Source: Aliiroseovarius sp. S1339
GTDB taxonomy: Bacteria; Pseudomonadota; Alphaproteobacteria; Rhodobacterales; Rhodobacteraceae
Assembly: GCF_023195695.1 (NCBI RefSeq)
Contig: NZ_JALPQG010000001.1
Coordinates: 1-64,000, forward strand
Direction: 5' to 3'
Length of the DNA stretch: 64,000 bases
The notes below the pieces were generated by a model. It saw nothing but the letters and a program-made list of their open reading frames with translations. It did not search any database and was not told the DNA's origin. The position numbers and the translations under genes were made by a program. How positions within the stretch are numbered: the first letter of the stretch is position 1; every line of letters starts with the position of its first letter. Positions 4,886 through 29,128 of the stretch are shown one piece after another.

Positions 4886-6136
4886 ATGCGCTACTCCGGC
4901 TTTAAGGTCATCAAGGAAGCCCTGACGGGCCACCGAGGCTGGACGCCCGCATGGCGCGACCCCGAGCCCCAAAGCCACTATGACATCGTCATCATTGGCG
5001 GTGGCGGTCATGGGTTGGCGACTGCGCATTACCTGTCCAAAGTGTATGACGAGAAGCGGGTTGCCGTTCTGGAAAAGGGCTGGATTGGCGGTGGCAATGT
5101 CGGGCGCAACACGACCATCATCCGCTCCAACTACCTGCTCGACGGAAACGAGCCATTCTACGAGATGTCGTTGAAGCTGTGGGAAGGGTTGGAGCAAGAC
5201 CTGAACTACAACGCTATGATCAGCCAACGCGGCATCATGAACCTGATCCATTCGGATGCACAGCGCGATGCGTTTGTCCGGCGGGGCAACGCGATGATGT
5301 TGAACGGCGCGGACGCCGAATACCTGAATGAAGACCAAATCCGCAAGGAATACCCGTTTCTGAATTTCGACGATGCTCGCTTTCCTATCAAAGGGGGGCT
5401 GGCGCAGCGACGTGGCGGCACCGTGCGCCATGACGCAGTCGCATGGGGCTTTGCGCGCAGCGCCGACAGCCACGGCGTCGACATCATCCAGAACTGCGAG
5501 GTGCAGGGCTTCCGCATCGAAGGCGGCGTGTGCAAAGGCGTCGAAACTTCGCGCGGCTTTGTCGGGGCGGGCAAAGTCGGGTGCGCGGTGGCGGGAAATT
5601 CAGGACGTCTGATGGCCATGGCGGGCATGCGGCTGCCGATTGAGAGCCACGTATTGCAGGCCTTCGTCTCTGAGGGTCTGAAACCCGTCCTACCCGGTGT
5701 CATTACCTTCGGCGCAGGCCACTTCTATGTGTCGCAATCCGACAAGGGCGGGCTGGTCTTCGGCGGCGATCTTGATGGCTATAACTCCTATGCCCAACGC
5801 GGCAACCTGCCTGTGGTCGAAGACGTCTGCGAGGGTGGCATGGCGATCATGCCGATGATTGGCCGCGCCCGGATGTTGCGGATGTGGGGCGGGATCATGG
5901 ATATGTCCATGGACGGTTCCCCCATTATCGACCGCACCCATATCGATGGGCTCTATTTCAATGGCGGCTGGTGCTACGGCGGCTTCAAAGCGACGCCTGC
6001 ATCGGGCTATGCCTTCGCCCATCTGTTGGCGAAAGATGAGCCGCACGAGACTGCGACTGCATACCGGATCGACCGCTTCCGTACCGGTCACATGATCGAC
6101 GAAAAGGGAATGGGCAATCAGCCCAACTTGCACTGA
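4886..6136 (+). CDS. mgdA: N-methylglutamate dehydrogenase subunit A (SoxB-like)
   Basis: Flavoprotein subunit, 416 residues, homologous to the beta subunit of heterotetrameric sarcosine oxidase. An FAD/NAD Rossmann motif IIGGGGHGLATAHYL lies near residue 37. His182, in GGTVRHDAVAWGFA, matches the histidine that binds FMN covalently in SoxB. With MgdB, C and D it oxidises N-methylglutamate to glutamate and passes the methyl carbon to tetrahydrofolate. Automatic pipelines would call it sarcosine oxidase. I prefer MgdA because mgsABC and gmaS lie in the same region and no glycine betaine or dimethylglycine demethylase gene does. The stop overlaps the mgdB start (TGATG). Confidence 0.82.
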   Translation: MRYSGFKVIKEALTGHRGWTPAWRDPEPQSHYDIVIIGGGGHGLATAHYLSKVYDEKRVAVLEKGWIGGGNVGRNTTIIRSNYLLDGNEPFYEMSLKLWEGLEQDLNYNAMISQRGIMNLIHSDAQRDAFVRRGNAMMLNGADAEYLNEDQIRKEYPFLNFDDARFPIKGGLAQRRGGTVRHDAVAWGFARSADSHGVDIIQNCEVQGFRIEGGVCKGVETSRGFVGAGKVGCAVAGNSGRLMAMAGMRLPIESHVLQAFVSEGLKPVLPGVITFGAGHFYVSQSDKGGLVFGGDLDGYNSYAQRGNLPVVEDVCEGGMAIMPMIGRARMLRMWGGIMDMSMDGSPIIDRTHIDGLYFNGGWCYGGFKATPASGYAFAHLLAKDEPHETATAYRIDRFRTGHMIDEKGMGNQPNLH

Positions 6137-6420
6137 TGATTATCAACCACCCCCTACTCGGCCCGCGCGACAGCGCCGAATTCATCTATATGGGCGACGC
6201 AGGGCTCATCAATCGCCCTGACCCTGAAACCGCCAGCGGAGAAGAATGGTATGCATATGCCTATCTACGCGACAACCCGGCGGGCGAGCATCGGGAATTG
6301 TGGTGGCATGAGGGCGGCGACCGCTCTTGGCTGGTGGTGACGCGCAACACGGTAACGCACGAAATATCCAAGGTCGAAATCGCACGTGATGTGGCCCGCG
6401 CGCAAGGACGCTCAAAATGA
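6136..6420 (+). CDS. mgdB: N-methylglutamate dehydrogenase subunit B (SoxD-like)
   Basis: Small subunit, 94 residues, matching the delta subunit of sarcosine oxidase in length, gene position and the stretches GPRDSAEF, RPDP and YLRDNPAG. SoxD proteins bind zinc through two cysteines near the N-terminus (CPYC type), a histidine and a third cysteine. Here the N-terminus reads NHPLLGPR and there is no cysteine in the whole protein, although WWHEGGDRSW keeps a histidine. Either MgdB proteins do not bind zinc or this lineage lost the site. It is translationally coupled at both ends, by one base to mgdA and four to mgdC. Confidence 0.8.
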   Translation: MIINHPLLGPRDSAEFIYMGDAGLINRPDPETASGEEWYAYAYLRDNPAGEHRELWWHEGGDRSWLVVTRNTVTHEISKVEIARDVARAQGRSK

Positions 6421-9356
6421 CCCAGTCCAATCGCCTGAGCGGCGGCCAGATCGACCGCAACACCACGCTGAAATTTACGTTCGACGGCAAGACCTACGAT
6501 GGCCACCCCGGTGATACACTGGCCTCTGCACTGCTGGCGAACAACGTGCGTCTGATGGGCCGATCGTTCAAATACCACCGCCCGCGCGGGCCTTTGACTG
6601 CGGGCTCGGAAGAACCGAACGCCATTGTTGAGTTGCGCAGTGGCGACCGCCAAGAACCCAACACCCGCGCGACAACGGCCGAGCTATATGACGGCCTCGT
6701 CGCCAAATCGCAAAACCGCTGGCCCTCGCTTGCCTTCGATGCCATGGCGATTAATGACCGCTTCTCGAATTTTTTGACGGCAGGCTTCTACTACAAGACC
6801 TTCATGTGGCCCGCCGCGTTCTGGGAAAAGGTATACGAGCCGATTATTCGCAAAGCCGCAGGGCTTGGATCGCTGTCCATGCAGGCGGACCCCGACGCGT
6901 ATGACAAGGGCTTCCGCCATTGCGAATTGTTGATTGTCGGCGCGGGGCCCGCAGGCCTGATGGCCGCTTTGACGGCTGGGCGTGCCGGGCGTGATGTTAT
7001 CTTGGCAGACGAAGATTTCGCCATGGGCGGGCAACTAAATTCCGAAACCTTTGCATTGAATGACGCCCCTGCCCTTGATTGGACCACCGCCACCGTGGCC
7101 GAGCTGTCGTCGCTGCCCAACGTCCGCCTGATGCCCCGCACGACGGTTATTGGCGCGTTCGATCACGGCATCTATGGCGCTGTTGAGCGGATATCGGACC
7201 ACTTGGAAACCCCGCCAGAGGGCAAGCCGCGCCAAATTCTGTGGCGTATCTACACCCAAAAAACTCTCCTTTGCGCAGGCGCCACCGAGCGCTCGATTGC
7301 CTTTGAAAACAACGACCGACCGGGCATTATGCTTGCCTCGGCTATCCGGACATATGCGAACCGTTGGGCGGCCACACCGGCACAGCGTGTTACGATCTTT
7401 ACCAACAATGACGACGGCCACCGCACAGCCGCCGATCTGCACGCCAAGCATGTGAATATTGCCGCCGTTGTGGACACGCGTGCAGATGCCCCGTTCAGCA
7501 GCGACTATGAGGTTATCAAAGGCGCACAAGTGGTCGACACAAAAGGTCGCCTTGGGCTGACATTCGCTGAGTTGCGGTTGGCGAATGGCGAAAGTCGAAC
7601 CGTCGAGTGCGGTGCGTTGGGCGTCTCGGGAGGTTGGAACCCGAATGTGCATTTGACCTGCCACCAACGCGGACGGCCAACTTGGAACGAGGACTTGGCG
7701 GCTTTCGTGCCGGGCGCCGACCTGCCCCCCGGGATGACCGTCGCAGGCGCGGCAGACGGCACGTTTTCCACCCATGGCGCGCTGACCTCCGGTGCGAATG
7801 CCGCTGCGCGGATACTGGACATCAAGCCCTCCGACGCCCCAACCACCGAGGATGCCGCCGTCAGGCAAACACCGTTCTGGTTTGTCGAAGGCTGCTCTCG
7901 TGCGTGGCTTGATCAACAAAACGACGTGACCGTGAAAGATGTGAAGCTGTCTCATCAAGAGGGCTTCCGCTCGGTCGAACACCTGAAACGTTACACCACA
8001 CTCGGCATGGCCACCGATCAGGGAAAGACGTCCAACATGGGCGGGCTAGCCATCATGGCAGAGCTTGTGGGTAAATCCATCCCCGAAGTTGGCACCACAA
8101 TTTTTCGCCCACCGTACACGCCCACAGCCATCGGCGTGCTGGGTGGCCGGATGCGCGGGATGGATTTTCACCCGACCCGCCTGACGCCTTCTCACTTTTG
8201 GGCAAAAGAGCGCGGCGCGGTCTTTGTCGAGGTCGGCAACTGGTTGCGCGCGCAGTGGTTCCCCATTGCGGGCGAAACCAATTGGCGCGCAAGTGTTGAC
8301 CGTGAAGTTCGCGCCACTCGCAATTCGGTCGGCGTGTGCGACTGCACAACGCTGGGCAAAATCGACGTGCAAGGCACCGACGCGGCATTGTTCCTGAATA
8401 AAGTATATTGCAACGGGTTTGCCAAACTCGCCGTGGGCAAAACCCGGTACGGTTTGATGCTGCGCGAAGACGGGATTGCCATGGATGACGGCACCGCGGG
8501 GCGACTGGCGGAGGATCATTTCGTGGTCACCACGACCACCGCCAATGCAGGCAAGGTCTATCAGCACATGGAATTCGTGCGCCAATGTCTGATGCCGGAC
8601 GCCGACGTGCAGCTGATTTCCACCACCGAGGCGTGGGCGCAATATGCCGTTGCGGGGCCAAATTCACGAAAGCTGTTGCAAAAGATCGTGGACCCCGCGT
8701 TCGACATCTCTAACGACGGCTTTCCCTTCATGGCCTGCGGCAACATCACCGTTTGCGGCGGGCTGCGTGCGCGCCTGTTCCGTATCTCATTCTCGGGCGA
8801 GTTGGCATTCGAGATTGCCGTGCCGTCGCGGTATGGTGACGCTTTGATACGCAAGTTGATGGCCCAAGGCGAAGAATTCGATGTCACGCCATATGGCACC
8901 GAAGCACTTGGCGTTATGCGGATAGAGAAAGGCCACGCGGCTGGCAACGAGTTGAACGGCACCACCACGGCGCTGAACCTTGGAATGGGGCGGATGGTGT
9001 CCAAGGCGAAGGACAGCATCGGCTCCAAACTGTCAGAGCGCGCGGGGCTAAACGAAGACGGCGCACTGGCGCAAGTGGGCATAAAGCCGGTGAACGCAGC
9101 CGATAAGATCACCGCCGGCGGGCATTTGATGGCGGCCACAGGCCCGGTCGATGCGAAGCACGATCAAGGCTACGTTACCTCCGCCGCCTTCTCTCCAAGC
9201 TTGGATCACATGATTGGGCTTGGGTTCCTGAAAGACGGCGGCAGTCGGCTGGGTGAAACGATGCGGCTGGTGTCACCCGTGACCGATCTAACGGTGGAGG
9301 TCGAGATCGTCTCGGCCCATTTTGTCGATCCCGAAGGGGAGCGTGTTCGTGCATGA
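6417..9356 (+). CDS. mgdC: N-methylglutamate dehydrogenase subunit C (SoxA-like)
   Basis: Large subunit, 979 residues, with the layout of the sarcosine oxidase alpha chain. An N-terminal ferredoxin-like fold covers residues 15-90 (FDGKTYDGHPGDTLASALL). A dinucleotide-binding flavoprotein domain begins near residue 170 (IVGAGPAGLMAALTAGRAG). The last roughly 380 residues are a GcvT-type tetrahydrofolate-binding domain, including NWRASVDREV and SGELAFEIAVPS. The GcvT part is expected to turn the released methylene group into 5,10-methylene-THF. It overlaps mgdB by four bases and mgdD by eight. Confidence 0.84.
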   Translation: MTQSNRLSGGQIDRNTTLKFTFDGKTYDGHPGDTLASALLANNVRLMGRSFKYHRPRGPLTAGSEEPNAIVELRSGDRQEPNTRATTAELYDGLVAKSQNRWPSLAFDAMAINDRFSNFLTAGFYYKTFMWPAAFWEKVYEPIIRKAAGLGSLSMQADPDAYDKGFRHCELLIVGAGPAGLMAALTAGRAGRDVILADEDFAMGGQLNSETFALNDAPALDWTTATVAELSSLPNVRLMPRTTVIGAFDHGIYGAVERISDHLETPPEGKPRQILWRIYTQKTLLCAGATERSIAFENNDRPGIMLASAIRTYANRWAATPAQRVTIFTNNDDGHRTAADLHAKHVNIAAVVDTRADAPFSSDYEVIKGAQVVDTKGRLGLTFAELRLANGESRTVECGALGVSGGWNPNVHLTCHQRGRPTWNEDLAAFVPGADLPPGMTVAGAADGTFSTHGALTSGANAAARILDIKPSDAPTTEDAAVRQTPFWFVEGCSRAWLDQQNDVTVKDVKLSHQEGFRSVEHLKRYTTLGMATDQGKTSNMGGLAIMAELVGKSIPEVGTTIFRPPYTPTAIGVLGGRMRGMDFHPTRLTPSHFWAKERGAVFVEVGNWLRAQWFPIAGETNWRASVDREVRATRNSVGVCDCTTLGKIDVQGTDAALFLNKVYCNGFAKLAVGKTRYGLMLREDGIAMDDGTAGRLAEDHFVVTTTTANAGKVYQHMEFVRQCLMPDADVQLISTTEAWAQYAVAGPNSRKLLQKIVDPAFDISNDGFPFMACGNITVCGGLRARLFRISFSGELAFEIAVPSRYGDALIRKLMAQGEEFDVTPYGTEALGVMRIEKGHAAGNELNGTTTALNLGMGRMVSKAKDSIGSKLSERAGLNEDGALAQVGIKPVNAADKITAGGHLMAATGPVDAKHDQGYVTSAAFSPSLDHMIGLGFLKDGGSRLGETMRLVSPVTDLTVEVEIVSAHFVDPEGERVRA

Positions 9357-9912
9357 TCTGATAGCCATAACTGCGCTTGGCGGCAGCGCCCCGCGCGTTG
9401 ACCGCGTGGCGGATACGACGCTGACCGAAAACCCCGGGATCGCGCTGGCGTCAGTCGCCGCGCGTATGGACCAAGAGACTACGTGCCGCAAACATTTGAA
9501 AGCCGTCATCGGCGCGGTTCCCGGGCCCGGCAAGGTACAGCTGCACGACCCTGAAGCAGGATTTTGGATGGGTCCCGATCAGTGGATGGTCGGCGCACCG
9601 TTCGACACACATGAAGACTTGGCCGCGCAACTAAAGGCGCGGTTTGGCGAGTCGGCATCGGTGACCGAGCAAACCGACGCTTGGGTCTGTTTCGATCTGC
9701 GAGGCGACGGAATGGAGGCGGTGATGGAGCTGCTGTGCAACGTCAACATCCGCGCCATGCAAACCGGTGACGCGCAGCGTACATCTATTCACCATCTGGG
9801 CTGCTTTGTGCTGCGCCGCGACCCATCCGATTGGGTGCGCATCCTTGGGCCGCGTGCTTCGGCAGGCTCGCTACATCATGCGATCCTGACCGCGATGAAA
9901 TCTGCACTTTAG
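9349..9912 (+). CDS. mgdD: N-methylglutamate dehydrogenase subunit D (SoxG-like)
   Basis: Gamma subunit, 187 residues, related to SoxG/GcvT-like chains (PGPGKVQLHDPEAGFWMGPD, AGSLHHAILTAMKS). The start is ambiguous. I chose GTG at 9349, giving VHDLIAITALGG, because a GAAGGGGA ribosome site ends nine bases before it and because SoxG proteins begin close to this ALGG motif. An ATG at 9322 would add nine residues inside mgdC. The stop codon overlaps the stop of the convergent regulator gene. It is the last gene of the mgdABCD operon. Confidence 0.78.
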   Translation: MHDLIAITALGGSAPRVDRVADTTLTENPGIALASVAARMDQETTCRKHLKAVIGAVPGPGKVQLHDPEAGFWMGPDQWMVGAPFDTHEDLAAQLKARFGESASVTEQTDAWVCFDLRGDGMEAVMELLCNVNIRAMQTGDAQRTSIHHLGCFVLRRDPSDWVRILGPRASAGSLHHAILTAMKSAL

Positions 9913-10907
9913 GTCGATGGCACCGGCATGTCGCCCACGACGCGAAAGGCATTGATCCGCGCGCGGTCTTCTTGCGGGCTTAGACCAAACGCGGTGCGGT
10001 AATGTGCAATTAATGGCGTCGGCGAGGCGTAGCCCACCGCGCAAGCGATCTGCGCCATACTGTCTTTGGAATAAAGCACGAGCTGCCGCGCGGCCTTCAT
10101 CCGCAGCTTGCGATAGTAATGTGTAGGGTTCTGGCCTGTTGCCTTCTTAAAGGCGCGTTCCACCTGACGCGGTGTTACGTTCAAGCTGTCCGCCACCTCG
10201 CCAATGGAAATTGGATCCTCGATGCGTCCTGCGAACAATGCAACGGCGCGGCCCACGAGGTCTGGCAGTGAAGGGTCGGCGCTGGCTTGCATTGGCACCC
10301 GCTGCCGAACCCCCTCGCCGCGCATCGTTGGATGCTGGAACCAACATGCGACCTCGTGGGCGATATCTGCCCCCAAGCGGTCCTCGACCAGTCTTAGCGC
10401 CAAATCAAACGCAGACGCCGCGCCCGAGACGGTATAGCGGCGGCGGTCGGTCACGATGACGTCCCCTTCGGCTTGCATGTCTGGGAATTCGGCGCGGTAT
10501 GCCGCCTCGTAGCACCAATGCACCGAGCAGCGATGGCCAGCCATCACACCAGCACGCGTGAGTGGAAACACCCCGCCACTGATGCCTCCCAATATAACGC
10601 CACGTCGATCCATGGCCCGCAAAATACCGTTAGAGGCTTTGGGGTCCGTGAAGGTGCTGGTGGGGCTGGACAGAAGAAACAACATGTCAACGTCACGCAA
10701 ATCCGTCAAAGCGCAATCCGGCTCGAAGCTAACAGCGGCACTTGAGGCGACCTTTTCGCCATGCTCAGACACGAGTTTCCAGGCAAAAGATTGCCGTCCT
10801 GCAATCTCGCCTGCGGCTCTGAGTGGCTCGATAAAGGAGGTCAGGCAAGCCATCGGGAATCCGGGAAAAATTAGAAACCCAATCCGCAATATTTCACTGT
10901 CGTTCAT
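9909..10907 (-). CDS. GlxA/AraC-family transcriptional regulator
   Basis: 332 residues. The N-terminal two thirds are a DJ-1/PfpI-like amidotransferase fold (IGFLIFPGFPMACLTSFIEP at the start, MDRRGVILGGISGGVF near residue 115), and the last roughly 100 residues are an AraC-type double helix-turn-helix (SIGEVADSLNVTPRQVERAF, then YASPTPLIAHYRTAFGLSP). This is the architecture of GbdR-like regulators of quaternary-amine catabolism. It lies convergent to mgdD and divergent from the XRE-cupin regulator, so control of one of the methylated-amine operons is likely, but the ligand cannot be read from sequence. Confidence 0.85.
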   Translation of the reverse strand: MNDSEILRIGFLIFPGFPMACLTSFIEPLRAAGEIAGRQSFAWKLVSEHGEKVASSAAVSFEPDCALTDLRDVDMLFLLSSPTSTFTDPKASNGILRAMDRRGVILGGISGGVFPLTRAGVMAGHRCSVHWCYEAAYRAEFPDMQAEGDVIVTDRRRYTVSGAASAFDLALRLVEDRLGADIAHEVACWFQHPTMRGEGVRQRVPMQASADPSLPDLVGRAVALFAGRIEDPISIGEVADSLNVTPRQVERAFKKATGQNPTHYYRKLRMKAARQLVLYSKDSMAQIACAVGYASPTPLIAHYRTAFGLSPQEDRARINAFRVVGDMPVPST

Positions 10908-24281: not shown

Positions 24282-24676
24282 TCGCCCGCCACCTTTCCGT
24301 CGTTCACCAGGATCATCGCGACCCGCCGCAGCGTTGCACGCAAGCGGTCGATATGGCTACCTTCATGGCCCAGATCGTCAAGCGCTCGGTCCATGAGCGT
24401 CAGCCAGTTCTCGGCATCTTCTAAGCGGATCGGAACATGGGCGTGGATATCGCGCACGTTCATGTGGCGGTGCTTTTCCATGTAGTACTGCCGCCCGCCC
24501 ATGAAGCCGGACAGAAAATCGAACTGCTCGACCCGCGTGTGGGCAAGCCCGTGATTTTGAAGGTGTAGCGACACAATCTGGCGGCCTTCCGGCATAGACT
24601 CGACCAGATCATAGAAATGCTCGACCAACGCGCGCAAAGCGGTTTCGCCGCCGATTTGGTCAAGCACTGTTGTCAT
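24278..24676 (-). CDS. Truncated hemoglobin, group II-like
   Basis: 132 residues. The build is that of group II truncated hemoglobins: LDQIGGETALRALVEHFYDL for helices A-B, FLSGFMGGRQYYMEK for E, then HRHMNVRDIHAHVPI with candidate proximal histidines, and ENWLTLMDRAL with the tryptophan at the G8-like position. It is tied to tdm by a four-base stop-start overlap and in the same way to a secreted protein gene. Possible roles are oxygen delivery to the oxidative demethylation steps, or handling NO or an oxidant. None can be chosen from sequence. Confidence 0.82.
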   Translation of the reverse strand: MTTVLDQIGGETALRALVEHFYDLVESMPEGRQIVSLHLQNHGLAHTRVEQFDFLSGFMGGRQYYMEKHRHMNVRDIHAHVPIRLEDAENWLTLMDRALDDLGHEGSHIDRLRATLRRVAMILVNDGKVAGE

Positions 24677-27045
24677 GAGCGCGGGCGCTCTTTCTTGGGA
24701 TCGAACGCCGCCAAGTCAGGGCGGATCGTTGCGGGCAAGCGCTTTTGATGACCGTCGAGCTTGCCGATTTCCAACTGTGTTCCGGCTTCGGCATGGGCCA
24801 CATCGACCCGGGCGATCGCGATGTTGCGTCCCAGAAGCGGTGAGCGCATGGACGATGTAACCTCACCCACCTGCGCGCGGCCCACATGGACGCAATCGCC
24901 ATGGCCGACCTCAACCTGACTGTCGATATCCAGCCCCACCAGTTTGCGCATAGGATGCTCTTTACGACGGATCAGGGCATCGCGCCCGATGAAATCGTCT
25001 TCTTTGGACTTTAATGGCACAGTAAATCCGACACCTGCTTCGTAAGGATCGGTTTGGTCCGAGAAGTCATAGCCCGCAAAGATCAGCCCTGCCTCAATGC
25101 GCACCATGTCCAGCGCATCCAGCCCCATCGGTTTCAGGCCGTGCTCTTTGCCAGCGTCCCAGATTGCGTCGAAAATCTCCTCGCAATCCTTCGGGTGGCA
25201 CATCACCTCATATCCCAGTTCACCGGTATAGCCGGTGCGTGACAGAACGAAGGCGGTGCCGCTTTCGTTGTTAAGCCGCGCCGGTGTGAAACGGAACCAG
25301 CCAAGTTGATCAAATTCAGGATTGTGTGGTGCAGTCCAAGTGATTTTGCGCAGCAGATCGCGGCTTTCTGGTCCCTGCACCGCGACGTTGTGCAACTGAT
25401 CGGTCGATGCACGCACCAACACCTTCAACCCCAACTTCTCGGCCTGCTCACGGATCCATTCCCCGCCGTAGTCAGAGCCGCCAATCCAGCGGAAATTGTC
25501 GCGGCCCAACCGGAAGACGGTGCCATCGTCGATCATGCCGCCATGCTCATAGCACATCGCGGTATAAACAACGGCACCCACAGCCAAAGTCTTCATATTA
25601 CGAGTGAAGACATATTGGCACAGCGCCTCTGCATCTGGTCCTGTGATCTCGAATTTACGCAGGGGCGACAGGTCCATGATGACGGCCTTTTGTCGGCAGG
25701 CGCGGTATTCCTCAATCGGGCCGGTTTCGGCATAACAACTCGCCAACCAATAGCCGTTATACTCGATAAAGTTGCGAGTGTGCTTGGCGAAGCTGTCGTG
25801 AAATCCGGTTTGCTTGGTCATTTTAGGTTCCGCATCTGGAGTGGGCCGGTACGCGACCGAGCGTTGGAAGGTCTCTTTGCCGCTATAGGTGCGGATGTGA
25901 ATGTCGGTCGGGTTCCAGCCATTGGCCGCCGACGTGTCGTCGGGACAGGCGGAGCTGACGCAGACGATATCCGTGAGTGCGCGCAACAACACGAAGTCGC
26001 CGGGGCGCGACCATGGTTCGTCGGAATACATCACGCCATGCTCGTCAAGGAAGGTGTTGAAGAAGAAGTTGATTGCCATCCAGCCACGGCGCGGGGCAAC
26101 GCCGTAATCGGCGAGCGCCCCATTGAAGTTGGTCGAGCAGTTAACGTGGCCGGGATAACCCATGTCGTTATAATACTTCTCGGTACAAGCCATGGCGAAC
26201 GCGTCATGCCGCCCGCAGGTGTCTTGCACGACCTCGACCAACGGCAACATTTCCTGATCATAGTATTTCGCGTGTAGTCCGGGCATTGGATAAGCATGGC
26301 CCATCAGTGTGCGGGTCGTCGTCACGTCAAGCGCGTGCTCAATGCCCTTGTCCAACTTGCGCGCCGAAAAGCATTCGAAGTCAGTGCATTGGCGACCGTC
26401 CACATCCTGGATTTGGATGTAGTCGCCCGCCTTAACGAAATAGGACTCGGCGGTGGCGTTGTGGATTCTGACGTCCAGCACAGGGTCGGCCAATGGGTCC
26501 GGCAACTCGAACTTGACATGTTGCTTGATGACGGCGCGTTTCACCATGACGGTAAGTGGCGTGGTGGTGTCTTGTGCTTCAATATCCATGGCACCGCCGG
26601 GGGCCGCGATGATCACGACCCCGTCGCGCGTTGCGCGTAAGGTCTCTTCCGACTTAGCGCGGGAAATGGCGTCGAACAGCCGGATAGCTTGTGCGTGGGC
26701 CACGTCTATCGCCCGCGCGTCAAGCCCCATCCGCAAGCCACGCAGTGAATTGTCAGAGCTGACCAACAGCGCCCGCAGACCCGTGGCCTGTGCGTTGGCG
26801 CTCGTGCCCAAAATTGCCGCATCAATTCGGCCTTTGCCGTCGGCGGCAACGATCTCGGCCACCTGCCCGCCTTCATCGTTGATCACGGTGATCTGGTCAC
26901 CCGCCTCAACGGGGATCAGCACGGCGCCGGCCCCTTCGACCACATAGCGCTCTGTTCCCGGCGGCATCGAGAAGACACGAGGTTGGATAATTTCGCTGGG
27001 TTTCGGAGGGCCCGGCCTTACCTTAGGATACGGATCATCAAGCAT
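24673..27045 (-). CDS. tdm: TMAO demethylase (aldolase)
   Basis: 790 residues with the two-part build of Tdm: an N-terminal DUF1989-type metal domain (about residues 1-400) and a C-terminal GcvT tetrahydrofolate domain (about 420-780). Cysteines likely to serve the zinc site are in DGRQCTDFECFS, CGRHDAFAMAC, GHVNCSTNFNGA and VSSACPDDTSAANG. The GcvT part shows LSRTGYTGELGYEVMCHP and VGFTVPLKSKEDDFIGRDA. It converts TMAO to dimethylamine and formaldehyde, and the GcvT part may capture the formaldehyde on folate. It is the first gene of the tdm-globin-secreted protein operon. Confidence 0.88.
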   Translation of the reverse strand: MLDDPYPKVRPGPPKPSEIIQPRVFSMPPGTERYVVEGAGAVLIPVEAGDQITVINDEGGQVAEIVAADGKGRIDAAILGTSANAQATGLRALLVSSDNSLRGLRMGLDARAIDVAHAQAIRLFDAISRAKSEETLRATRDGVVIIAAPGGAMDIEAQDTTTPLTVMVKRAVIKQHVKFELPDPLADPVLDVRIHNATAESYFVKAGDYIQIQDVDGRQCTDFECFSARKLDKGIEHALDVTTTRTLMGHAYPMPGLHAKYYDQEMLPLVEVVQDTCGRHDAFAMACTEKYYNDMGYPGHVNCSTNFNGALADYGVAPRRGWMAINFFFNTFLDEHGVMYSDEPWSRPGDFVLLRALTDIVCVSSACPDDTSAANGWNPTDIHIRTYSGKETFQRSVAYRPTPDAEPKMTKQTGFHDSFAKHTRNFIEYNGYWLASCYAETGPIEEYRACRQKAVIMDLSPLRKFEITGPDAEALCQYVFTRNMKTLAVGAVVYTAMCYEHGGMIDDGTVFRLGRDNFRWIGGSDYGGEWIREQAEKLGLKVLVRASTDQLHNVAVQGPESRDLLRKITWTAPHNPEFDQLGWFRFTPARLNNESGTAFVLSRTGYTGELGYEVMCHPKDCEEIFDAIWDAGKEHGLKPMGLDALDMVRIEAGLIFAGYDFSDQTDPYEAGVGFTVPLKSKEDDFIGRDALIRRKEHPMRKLVGLDIDSQVEVGHGDCVHVGRAQVGEVTSSMRSPLLGRNIAIARVDVAHAEAGTQLEIGKLDGHQKRLPATIRPDLAAFDPKKERPRS

Positions 27046-27204
27046 GTTTTAGGTCCCCGTCGCGCCCATGTTGCATGAGTGGAATAATTCTTTAACAAAA
27101 AGAATAACCAGCCGATCTGTGTCCTGCAAAGAAAATCGGTCGGTGCGCAGACGTTTTCCGATGCTTGGCAAGAGATGGGGTGCTTTCCCGAGAGAATAGC
27201 AGCC

Positions 27205-28218
27205 TTAATGCTTAAGAATTTTTACCCGTCTGCGCGCGCGCAGCTTGGATGGCGTTTGGCCGAATTCCTCCTTCACCGCATTTGCCATGGTCGCGAGTGA
27301 TCCGAACCCCGTGGCTACGGAAATCTCTGTGAGCGGCATCAGTGTTTCTTCCACCAGGTCCTTGGCGCGCCGTGTGCGCAGTCGCTTATAAAACCTTGCG
27401 GGTGTGTCGTCGAAGACTTCTCGAAAGTTGCGCTCCAGTTGACGGGTGGACAGACGCAAGTCGCGCACCAATTCGCTAATCGGTATGGGATCGGCGAGCG
27501 TGCTCTCCATGATACGGATGGCTTGCGTAACTTGACCGTCAAATAACGCAGCGTTGTCAGCCAGGTTTTTGGGCTGCTCCGCATCGCTTTTGCGGATCGT
27601 GTGTATTAGCAGTCGATTGCCCAGCTCCGCCACTTGTGGGCCATCGAGCATTGGAGCGATCAGTCCCAGGATTAACTCTGCGGTTGCCCCCGCCCCTGCG
27701 GCGGTGACGATACCGTCTGAATTTTCCGAGAAACAATGGGTCAGGTTTGGGTGGTATCCTTCCTCCGACAGCATTTCGACATCGCGCCAATGGGTGGTAA
27801 CTTTTCCCGCAGGCGCATGTGTCGCCTTGATATATGCGGTGGCCGCGTCTGACAGCAGCGCAACCGGGCGGGCTTTGCGCTGCATTGCGCGGGCGCGCTT
27901 TAGCCATTCGTCGGAACGCGCGGTATTTGTTCCGCCCACCACAATCATGACATCAGACAGCAAATGATCAGGCACTGCCAACTCGGAGCGTACTATCATG
28001 TCGCTCCGGCTCTTGGTCAGCCCCGGCGTGTCGGACACAATGCGCCACGTGAAGCGCGCTGTGCCGCATAACTCATTGGCCAATGTTAACGTTCGGGTGA
28101 CCGATGATAGCTCGAAATCACAAAAACCCGCGCTGACGAACAGCTCGAAACTGCGGAGAGTGCTTGGTTTCCCTGCGACAGCTAAGTTCATGTTGAATTT
28201 GGTCCCGTAACGTCCCAT
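27205..28218 (-). CDS. GlxA/AraC-family transcriptional regulator
   Basis: 337 residues: DJ-1/PfpI-like N-terminal domain (FELFVSAGFCDFELSSVTRT near residue 25, VVGGTNTARSDEWL near 93) and a C-terminal AraC helix-turn-helix pair (PISELVRDLRLSTRQLERNF, then VATGFGSLATMANAVKEEFG). It is the second regulator of this build in the region and sits directly upstream of tdm in the same direction (159-base gap). A GGAGG ribosome site inside the preceding small ORF and a TAAATG junction suggest the two are co-translated. Control of tdm or of TMAO use is inferred. Confidence 0.83.
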   Translation of the reverse strand: MGRYGTKFNMNLAVAGKPSTLRSFELFVSAGFCDFELSSVTRTLTLANELCGTARFTWRIVSDTPGLTKSRSDMIVRSELAVPDHLLSDVMIVVGGTNTARSDEWLKRARAMQRKARPVALLSDAATAYIKATHAPAGKVTTHWRDVEMLSEEGYHPNLTHCFSENSDGIVTAAGAGATAELILGLIAPMLDGPQVAELGNRLLIHTIRKSDAEQPKNLADNAALFDGQVTQAIRIMESTLADPIPISELVRDLRLSTRQLERNFREVFDDTPARFYKRLRTRRAKDLVEETLMPLTEISVATGFGSLATMANAVKEEFGQTPSKLRARRRVKILKH

Positions 28219-28509
28219 TTAAACCTCCAGCTCGCCAGCCGCACGGCGAGAATGCAGCGAGACGGAGCGTGCCATATGGTGGCATTCCGTCACCGCTGCA
28301 CCTTCGGCCATCAGCATCATCACCGCGGATTTTTCAACGATCTCTGAATGACCAATCATCACAACCTCCGGCATATCGCTGATTGAGATCGACACAAGCT
28401 CGGGTATATTATGATGGGCATCGCAAACCGCACGGCAACTCTCAAGAATGCGAGCCGCGACGGCCTTTCCGTCCATCAGGCGGTGGTCGGCGATCAAGTC
28501 CTTCATCAT
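28219..28509 (-). CDS. Mini-FolD: FolD-like ORF lacking the central catalytic region
   Basis: 96 codons with ATG and TAA. Residues 11-22 (LMDGKAVAARIL) match the N-terminal motif of FolD (bifunctional methylene-THF dehydrogenase/cyclohydrolase). Residues 49-77 (VVMIGHSEIVEKSAVMML, then GAAVTECH) match the NADP-domain motif VVIGRS.IVGKP...LLL...TVT.CH of the same protein. In a normal FolD of about 290-300 residues these segments lie over 120 residues apart. The catalytic Tyr-Lys region between them is gone, as is everything after the NADP motif. It abuts the GlxA/AraC gene. Either a decayed folD with an in-frame deletion or a repurposed small protein. Confidence 0.6.
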   Translation of the reverse strand: MMKDLIADHRLMDGKAVAARILESCRAVCDAHHNIPELVSISISDMPEVVMIGHSEIVEKSAVMMLMAEGAAVTECHHMARSVSLHSRRAAGELEV

Positions 28510-29128
28510 GGCATGCCCCAGAAATTATCATAGCGATTTGATACTGTGGCTTGCACAGCGATTTTTCCTAAAATTCAACATTTATTACTTGGGGTCAATG
28601 TCCGGGCCACAGCCATCGGCTGATGGCTCAACAGACAAGTCCTCCAGCGCCCCGATCAAATGCCAACGAGACGGCTCGGAAAGTGTAGGTTTGGGGCGCC
28701 TAACCTGCTGGCGTCGGACATACACCTCTGAACGCCCAAGCGTGGGGGTCGAATATCTGACACCGATCCAGAAACTGAAAACAGCATAGGTTCCACTTCT
28801 TCGCAGTTAAGCCGACACAGACGTTAATGGTTCACTTTCCAGCCCTCCTGTTGCAACAGGGCGTGCGGGCGGCGATATCCGTAGCTCACTGGGCTTTCCG
28901 CGTTTCTCAGCGCAAAGGCAATCTGTTCATCGTTGATAAGTTTCTTCGAAATAGGCTCGCTCCTTATCGTGCCAGAAGTATACCCAAATTTCCGCATTAA
29001 ATTTGAACCGGCTTCAGCGGGTCAAGACCAGACGCATCTTCCCAATTGACTGAGGTCATTGAGCCAAAATCAAGATCCGACATAGTGGTTCCAAACCGTT
29101 AAAAATCGTGAATTGTTGGAGAGGTGCC
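28510..29128. other. Gene-poor stretch with mobile-element debris
   Basis: Over 600 bases without a convincing intact gene. A perfect inverted repeat (AGCCATC, GGCT loop, GATGGCT) lies at about 28612-28629. Between 28585 and 28806 both strands are open: the minus frame has no ATG, and the plus frame forms part of an ORF starting inside the mini-FolD gene. I could not identify a protein in either. An IS3-type remnant follows at 28806-28952. The rest to 29128 holds the upstream region of the CPBP gene and nothing else I recognise. Confidence 0.5.
28806..28952 (-). pseudogene. IS3-family transposase remnant (OrfA start fused to OrfB segment)
   Basis: Read on the minus strand from 28946, the frame gives KKLINDEQIAFALRNAE, which is the start of an IS3-type OrfA, followed at once by YGYRRPHALLQQEGWKVNH, which is the conserved HTH_21 region near the start of OrfB. 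The frame then meets TAA at 28826-28824 where a lysine codon is usual, and continues RLCRLN. Most of OrfA and the start of OrfB have been deleted and the rest is inactivated. Confidence 0.7.

Follow-up and report, generated by a model that had tools for sequence, protein, structure and literature searches.

Bacterial pseudogenes can form by internal deletion between short repeats. A functional FolD, the enzyme of interest here, has both of its domains in full, at a length of about 280-300 aa, together with the catalytic centre, an intact NADP loop and a C-terminal TPVPGGVGP segment. In Rhodobacterales, a FolD paralogue of about 290 aa is encoded in trimethylamine-degradation clusters, in front of the gene for an AraC/GlxA-type regulator and of tdm. 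The roles of Tyr50 and Lys54 in Escherichia coli FolD are covered by the accessible part of PMC5688156, according to which the K54N variant had no detectable cyclohydrolase activity and about 19% dehydrogenase activity. As to regulation, TmaR of Ruegeria pomeroyi, the gene for which adjoins mgdABCD, is presented in the accessible part of PMC13390433 as a master regulator of the AraC type for the catabolism of trimethylamine.

Here we consider a 96-codon open reading frame (ORF) of Aliiroseovarius sp. S1339, found in a stretch of 64,000 nucleotides that was analysed as a whole and is called the window below. We argue that this frame is very probably a pseudogene of the full-length, ~290-aa FolD paralogue of the trimethylamine-degradation cluster that was internally deleted twice, and that this pseudogene is most probably fairly recent. 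Like the paralogue, the fragment precedes the araC/glxA gene and tdm, and it retains residues 1 to ~49 as well as the NADP segment; unlike the paralogue, it lacks about 200 residues and the catalytic centre, and it is changed at six residues that are invariant in 45 relatives. It resembles bacterial pseudogenes produced by deletion between short repeats in the repeat at its first join, the loss of most of the gene, the relaxed constraint and the presence, in another part of the genome, of a related enzyme, but differs from them in that its frame remains open up to a stop that abuts the next gene, a position that perhaps favoured in-frame loss.

Anatomy of the fragment

The features of the window that are needed to follow the argument are these (loci and genomes of relatives are denoted below by L and G numbers, respectively):

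28219-28509, minus strand: ORF of 96 codons (96 aa, ATG start, TAA stop), the probable remnant of the folD paralogue of the methylated-amine cluster
28363-28509, minus strand: segment 1, the N-terminal ~49 FolD residues, up to ...MPEV (tblastn with residues 2-50 of the L030 FolD, 63% identity, E 3e-15)
28240-28368, minus strand: segment 2, the NAD(P)-binding segment, fragment residues 48-90 (tblastn with residues 164-206 of the L030 FolD, 81% identity, E 1.6e-16)
28219-28239, minus strand: final six codons with the stop, in the place of the folD C-terminus; similarity of this tail mostly not significant
27205-28218, minus strand: intact AraC/GlxA-type regulator (DJ-1_PfpI and HTH_18), directly downstream of folD in relatives
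24673-27045, minus strand: tdm, trimethylamine N-oxide demethylase (NCBIfam NF053776, 1206.8 bits, cut-off 1100)

The ORF reads on the minus strand, and the plus-strand letters of 28219-28509 in that frame are interrupted by stops. With the strand added, the account given in the preliminary description, namely, a 96-codon frame with an intact start and stop that touches its neighbour, is correct: the TAA of the ORF abuts the ATG of the regulator gene. The relationship to FolD exceeds what chance would give. Specifically, the Pfam model of the FolD NAD(P)-binding domain (PF02882) matches fragment residues 47-90 with 30.9 bits against a cut-off of 27 (E 2e-07), the match covering profile positions 37-80, that is, 44 of 160. 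For the first half of the fragment, Pfam reported nothing; here, the N-terminal FolD motif that had been proposed earlier is borne out by tblastn, residues 1-49 matching the N-terminus of the full-length L030 FolD (see the list). FolD models of NCBIfam match at E up to 0.01 in 18 cases, 17 of them inside residues 41-90 and one at residues 8-27, all with scores far under the cut-offs (at best 29.3 bits versus 421). Residues 48-90 are also matched by three plasmid records, two of which are annotated as bifunctional FolD and one of which carries no annotation.

The two segments overlap by 6 nt, GAGGTT, which mark the first join. The corresponding two E-V codon pairs are spaced by 115 codons in all four relatives measured, and L030 carries GAGGT at both positions that match the join. 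Accordingly, 115 codons are gone between ...PEV and VMIGHS, including the helix aligned to Tyr50/Lys54 of E. coli FolD and the central part, so that the catalytic part is absent, as claimed in the preliminary description; the latter overlooked, however, that most of the C-terminal part is gone as well. After HSRRA, the fragment has only six more codons before its stop, whereas the 296-residue frame of L030 has 90 more and ends with AAGWVN, which puts the loss at the second join at about 85 codons; the C-terminal TPVPGGVGP segment is absent from the 96 aa. In most relatives, folD ends with AAGW.., and the AAG found at the second join of the fragment fits this pattern. Since comparison of the last six codons with the folD C-termini of 10 relatives yielded shuffle P values from 0.014 to 0.79 (10 comparisons), at best a weak similarity, we infer from position only that these codons come from the folD C-terminus. 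The NADP loop reads GHSEIVEKS in the fragment versus GHSEIVGKP in the subfamily, with the changes G59E and P61S. Thus, of the hallmarks of a functional FolD, the fragment shows only the similarity to the NAD(P)-binding domain, and neither the complete two-domain length, nor the intact loop, nor TPVPGGVGP.

The same place in relatives

Relatives were collected by scanning a species-genome collection with peptide patterns of the 96 residues, and the best 80 of 116 were examined. In 78 of these best 80, the match comprises residues 48-89/90 at 74-84% identity; L055 and L091 match longer stretches of the fragment, with 59% and 66% identity. The stop-to-stop frames around the matches span at least 289 aa in 79 of the best 80, and the one in L083, of 164 aa, ends at a contig edge. 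The order folD, regulator (49-64% identity) and tdm on one strand was found in 12 of the best 80 loci (L026, L030, L038, L040, L042, L045, L046, L049, L051, L066, L082 and L088) and, additionally, in G260; G390 is the same record as L046, so that this order was not counted separately there. A further 24 of the best 80 have folD and tdm, the regulator match being absent among the matches listed. Other cluster genes follow in relatives with varying completeness, namely, those for a globin and a 128-aa protein, the genes that we take to be tmm and gmaS, and a glutamate-synthase-like gene. With full-length folD occupying the equivalent place, the earlier suggestion that the ORF is a residue of a cluster folD gene is supported. 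The regulator and tdm without folD in front were found in seven other loci (G233, G207, G422, G421, G413, G414 and G415).

No short counterpart of the fragment emerged from either of two wider searches, which could, however, miss a much-diverged one. Within the genus (21 genomes, E to 1e-3), 15 of the 20 congeners match, all in open frames of at least 305 aa (305-407); for the family, a set of 394 genomes with close to one per genus (E to 1e-8) gave matches in 48 of the 393 others, in open frames of at least 200 aa. As all matches in the 20 congeners and 393 family genomes lie in frames of at least 200 aa, the idea of a hitherto undescribed protein family of this build, raised in the preliminary description, is not upheld. 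The same description proposed to take absence of conservation in sister genomes as a sign of decay; the outcome is on the side of decay, but true sisters are lacking, as tdm was found, at E up to 1e-150, in only one of the 21 genomes of the genus, the window's own. For the same reason, close sisters for a direct dN/dS estimate are lacking.

The surroundings of the ORF include several further features:

28796-29030, minus strand: remnant of an IS3-family transposase, apparently deleted internally, its two pieces sharing 6 nt
28562-28568, minus strand: GGAAAAA, 66 nt before the start of the fragment
9909-10907, minus strand: second GlxA/AraC-type regulator, beside sarcosine-oxidase-like genes

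The two pieces of the IS3 remnant, which overlap by 6 bases in the window, are separated by about 370 bp in the copy on a Sagittula plasmid; the transposase model HTH_21 matches the remnant under its cut-off, and the element lies some 0.3 kb upstream of the folD remnant. Of 11 relatives examined, 6 (L026, L040, L042, L043, L049 and L082; counts without statistics) have GGAAAAA as well, 61-81 nt upstream of the start of folD; these letters are, perhaps, a candidate part of the original promoter region or a regulator site. Similar letters also precede araC in some folD-less loci. The regulator may still have its promoter upstream of the remnant. In five relatives that were read (L026, L038, L045, L153 and L155), a transporter gene on the opposite strand, EamA/DMT-like by eye, separates the regulator from tdm; tblastn found no match to it in the window, which has a 160-bp gap (27046-27204) instead, and it is missing from G207, too. 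Thus, the locus has probably lost several pieces.

With regard to the regulators, plasmid records contained one distant example. The gene position of the second GlxA/AraC-type regulator of the window resembles that of TmaR, as far as the latter is described in the accessible part of PMC13390433; the sarcosine-oxidase-like genes beside it, at 4886-9912, perhaps encode N-methylglutamate dehydrogenase.

Constraint on the fragment

For the analysis of constraint, 45 of the best 80 (of 116) relatives, mostly Rhodobacterales, with complete ORFs were picked by hand and aligned with the fragment over 83 codons. Since the loci had been found via short peptide patterns of the fragment itself, the respective residues are forced to look invariant, which works against finding changes in the fragment. 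In a leave-one-out comparison, the fragment departs at 7 of the 36 columns that are invariant in the 45 relatives, or, when residue 91 is set aside because of its place at the second join, at 6 of 35 (G44S, G59E, P61S, A63V, T72A and T80A), as against a single departure in 4 of the 45 relatives and none in the other 41. At columns conserved to at least 95%, the fragment is changed at 10 of 42, and a relative at no more than 3 of 43.

A codon model was applied to 20 sequences, the fragment and 19 of the 45 relatives. Pairwise NG86 dN/dS values were saturated and several of them undefined. With a single omega over 81 codons, the fragment branch shows 0.069 versus 0.057 elsewhere (p 0.74), and omega = 1 is rejected (p 4.9e-4); this branch is long and saturated, and mostly records the purifying selection that preceded the damage. 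Because the pairwise values were saturated and the single-omega model was uninformative, each segment was given omegas of its own, on branch lengths common to both. For the 41 codons of the NADP segment, this yields an omega of 0.055 on the fragment branch versus 0.003 elsewhere (LRT 20.6, p 5.6e-6), and the same test repeated on the 19 other terminal branches reveals no relaxation (LRT 0.21-1.76). With both segments freed, the NADP segment has 0.041 versus 0.003 and the N-terminal segment 0.086 versus 0.132 (LRT 21.0, p 2.7e-5), so that the two-segment model shows no relaxation of the latter on the fragment branch. When freed alone, the N-terminal segment has an omega of 0.025 versus 0.137 (LRT 11.1), but with the branch length at its bound (20.1), so that we base no conclusion on this value. 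The codon-model estimates come from an optimiser that was stopped at 80 iterations (40 for controls) and from a tree in which several deep nodes are weak, with support of 47-79. The openness of the frame is uninformative either way because, in simulations with about 20 random substitutions, the ORF remains open with a probability of 0.60. Taken together, we read the constraint tests as indicating recent decay.

Origin of the fragment and alternative explanations

The following sequence of events can be envisaged. Originally, a folD paralogue of about 290 aa would have been located directly upstream of the AraC/GlxA regulator gene, as in relatives. Two internal deletions, of ~345 bp and ~255 bp, would have taken out the catalytic centre together with the larger part of the C-terminal region; the first of these would most simply be accounted for by short-repeat recombination at the direct repeat GAGGT. 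The loss would have been affordable if the canonical FolD/Fhs pair of the cell makes the paralogue dispensable. That the frame stayed open from the old start up to the start of the regulator might be due to chance, or to the harm that out-of-frame versions would do to the translation of the regulator; the remnant may still be transcribed together with the latter. What counts against decay, besides the single-omega test, is that the frame is intact with both start and stop kept, two in-frame deletions having a prior of about 1/9.

This feature leads to a different explanation, which appears unlikely, although it is the best of those considered besides decay: the sequence of the remnant would be irrelevant, but its translation would be kept, the ORF being a leader that delivers ribosomes to the regulator by translational coupling and tolerates only in-frame deletions. 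The contact between the TAA and the regulator ATG and the GGAGG within the last codons of the ORF are in line with such coupling, even if GGAGG could serve the regulator without it. Furthermore, in 10 of 13 distinct folD-carrying loci with this regulator, the regulator start, as placed by a script, follows the stop of folD at a distance of 0-6 nt, and the folD-less clusters of G233 and G207 have ATG ORFs that end 2 and 1 nt, respectively, before the regulator:

L153, 7592-7678: 28 codons (G233)
L154, 7768-7863: 31 codons (G207)

As a background, an ORF of at least 24 codons is so placed before 190 of 4557 ATGs (4.2%) and in some 3% of shuffles. After G233 and G207, a leader function looked strong as the main reading; it was no longer preferred after 13 stretches from ten more genomes of the G207 genus, five of the stretches with araC and tdm, had been considered (the genus of G233 comprises one genome). 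In particular, an ORF of at least 24 codons is absent from five of the eight araC- and tdm-containing loci without a full folD (G422, G421, G413, G414 and G415), a 19-codon ORF of G414 is missing from the similar G415, and none of 17 further loci (related regulator, no tdm in the stretch read) has an ORF of at least 24 codons within 5 nt. Hence, a leader ORF at the regulator start has been kept in just three of the eight folD-less araC-tdm loci, the window included, a tally that omits the 17 loci without tdm in the stretch read, nine with a regulator identity of 52-55% (G390 C186 and eight others) and eight with 38-47%; in three of those nine, a 17-codon ATG ORF ends 1 nt before the chosen start. 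Slightly less likely still is that the body of folD was lost under selection for keeping a translated leader, the enzyme gene turning into a coupling leader, with the 28 and 31 codons of G233 and G207 as further stages.

That the fragment works as a shrunken FolD binding NADP, folate or a full-length FolD, as had been entertained in the preliminary description, seems highly improbable. Such a protein would agree with the open frame, its ATG and stop, with the presence of the FolD NADP segment and with the rejection of omega = 1 over the whole branch, but the NADP loop carries G59E and P61S, the NADP segment is relaxed, no short counterpart was found in the genomes searched, and both the catalytic centre and the C-terminal part are gone. 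Nor does the AlphaFold2 model of the 96 residues, built with a 20-sequence alignment, show any sign of a stable fold (mean pLDDT 59.9, pTM 0.34); its quality is too low for a search by fold. The least probable explanation, to the point of being negligible, is a chance ORF or an assembly artefact: no supporting point was found, and the alignments of both segments to FolD (E ~3e-15 and 2e-16) have the order, the reading frame and the place in the genome that one would expect. We therefore retain the twice-deleted pseudogene of the cluster folD paralogue as the preferred explanation.

Folate enzymes of the genome and the intact paralogue

Besides the fragment, the genome encodes one full FolD above the Pfam cut-off (219.6 bits), which adjoins Fhs on another contig and has Lys at the place of Lys54; a second full FolD above this cut-off was not found. 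There are two Formyl_trans_N proteins; the lengths of their open frames, 212 and 318 aa, would fit PurN and Fmt. Oxidation of the methylene-tetrahydrofolate from the cluster can presumably run without the paralogue.

In the intact cluster paralogue, the place of the catalytic Lys54 is occupied by Gln, within Y-x-R-x-Q, in 45 of 45 rows inspected by eye (among L026-L105); the three solved FolD chains that were aligned have Lys there. Judging from the K54N data, the intact Gln paralogue should lack cyclohydrolase activity and is, possibly, a dehydrogenase-only FolD. Another FolD-like protein of the Gln type is encoded together with Fhs and a canonical FolD in the three congener loci that were read (L012, L016 and L019, of G006, G020 and G018, respectively). 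A literature search for folD in combination with trimethylamine, tdm or gmaS found nothing, which is no claim on what is in print.

Implications

The fragment is a real remnant of a known gene, and an ordinary one. Its importance hardly goes past annotation, which should list it neither under FolD nor as a new family of mini-proteins. Some lineages, it suggests, can do without the folD paralogue of the trimethylamine cluster. The fragment also offers a small test case for whether loss of a gene in frame is favoured where translation of the downstream neighbour may be coupled. The more interesting object than the remnant is the family of intact paralogues with Gln in place of the catalytic Lys.
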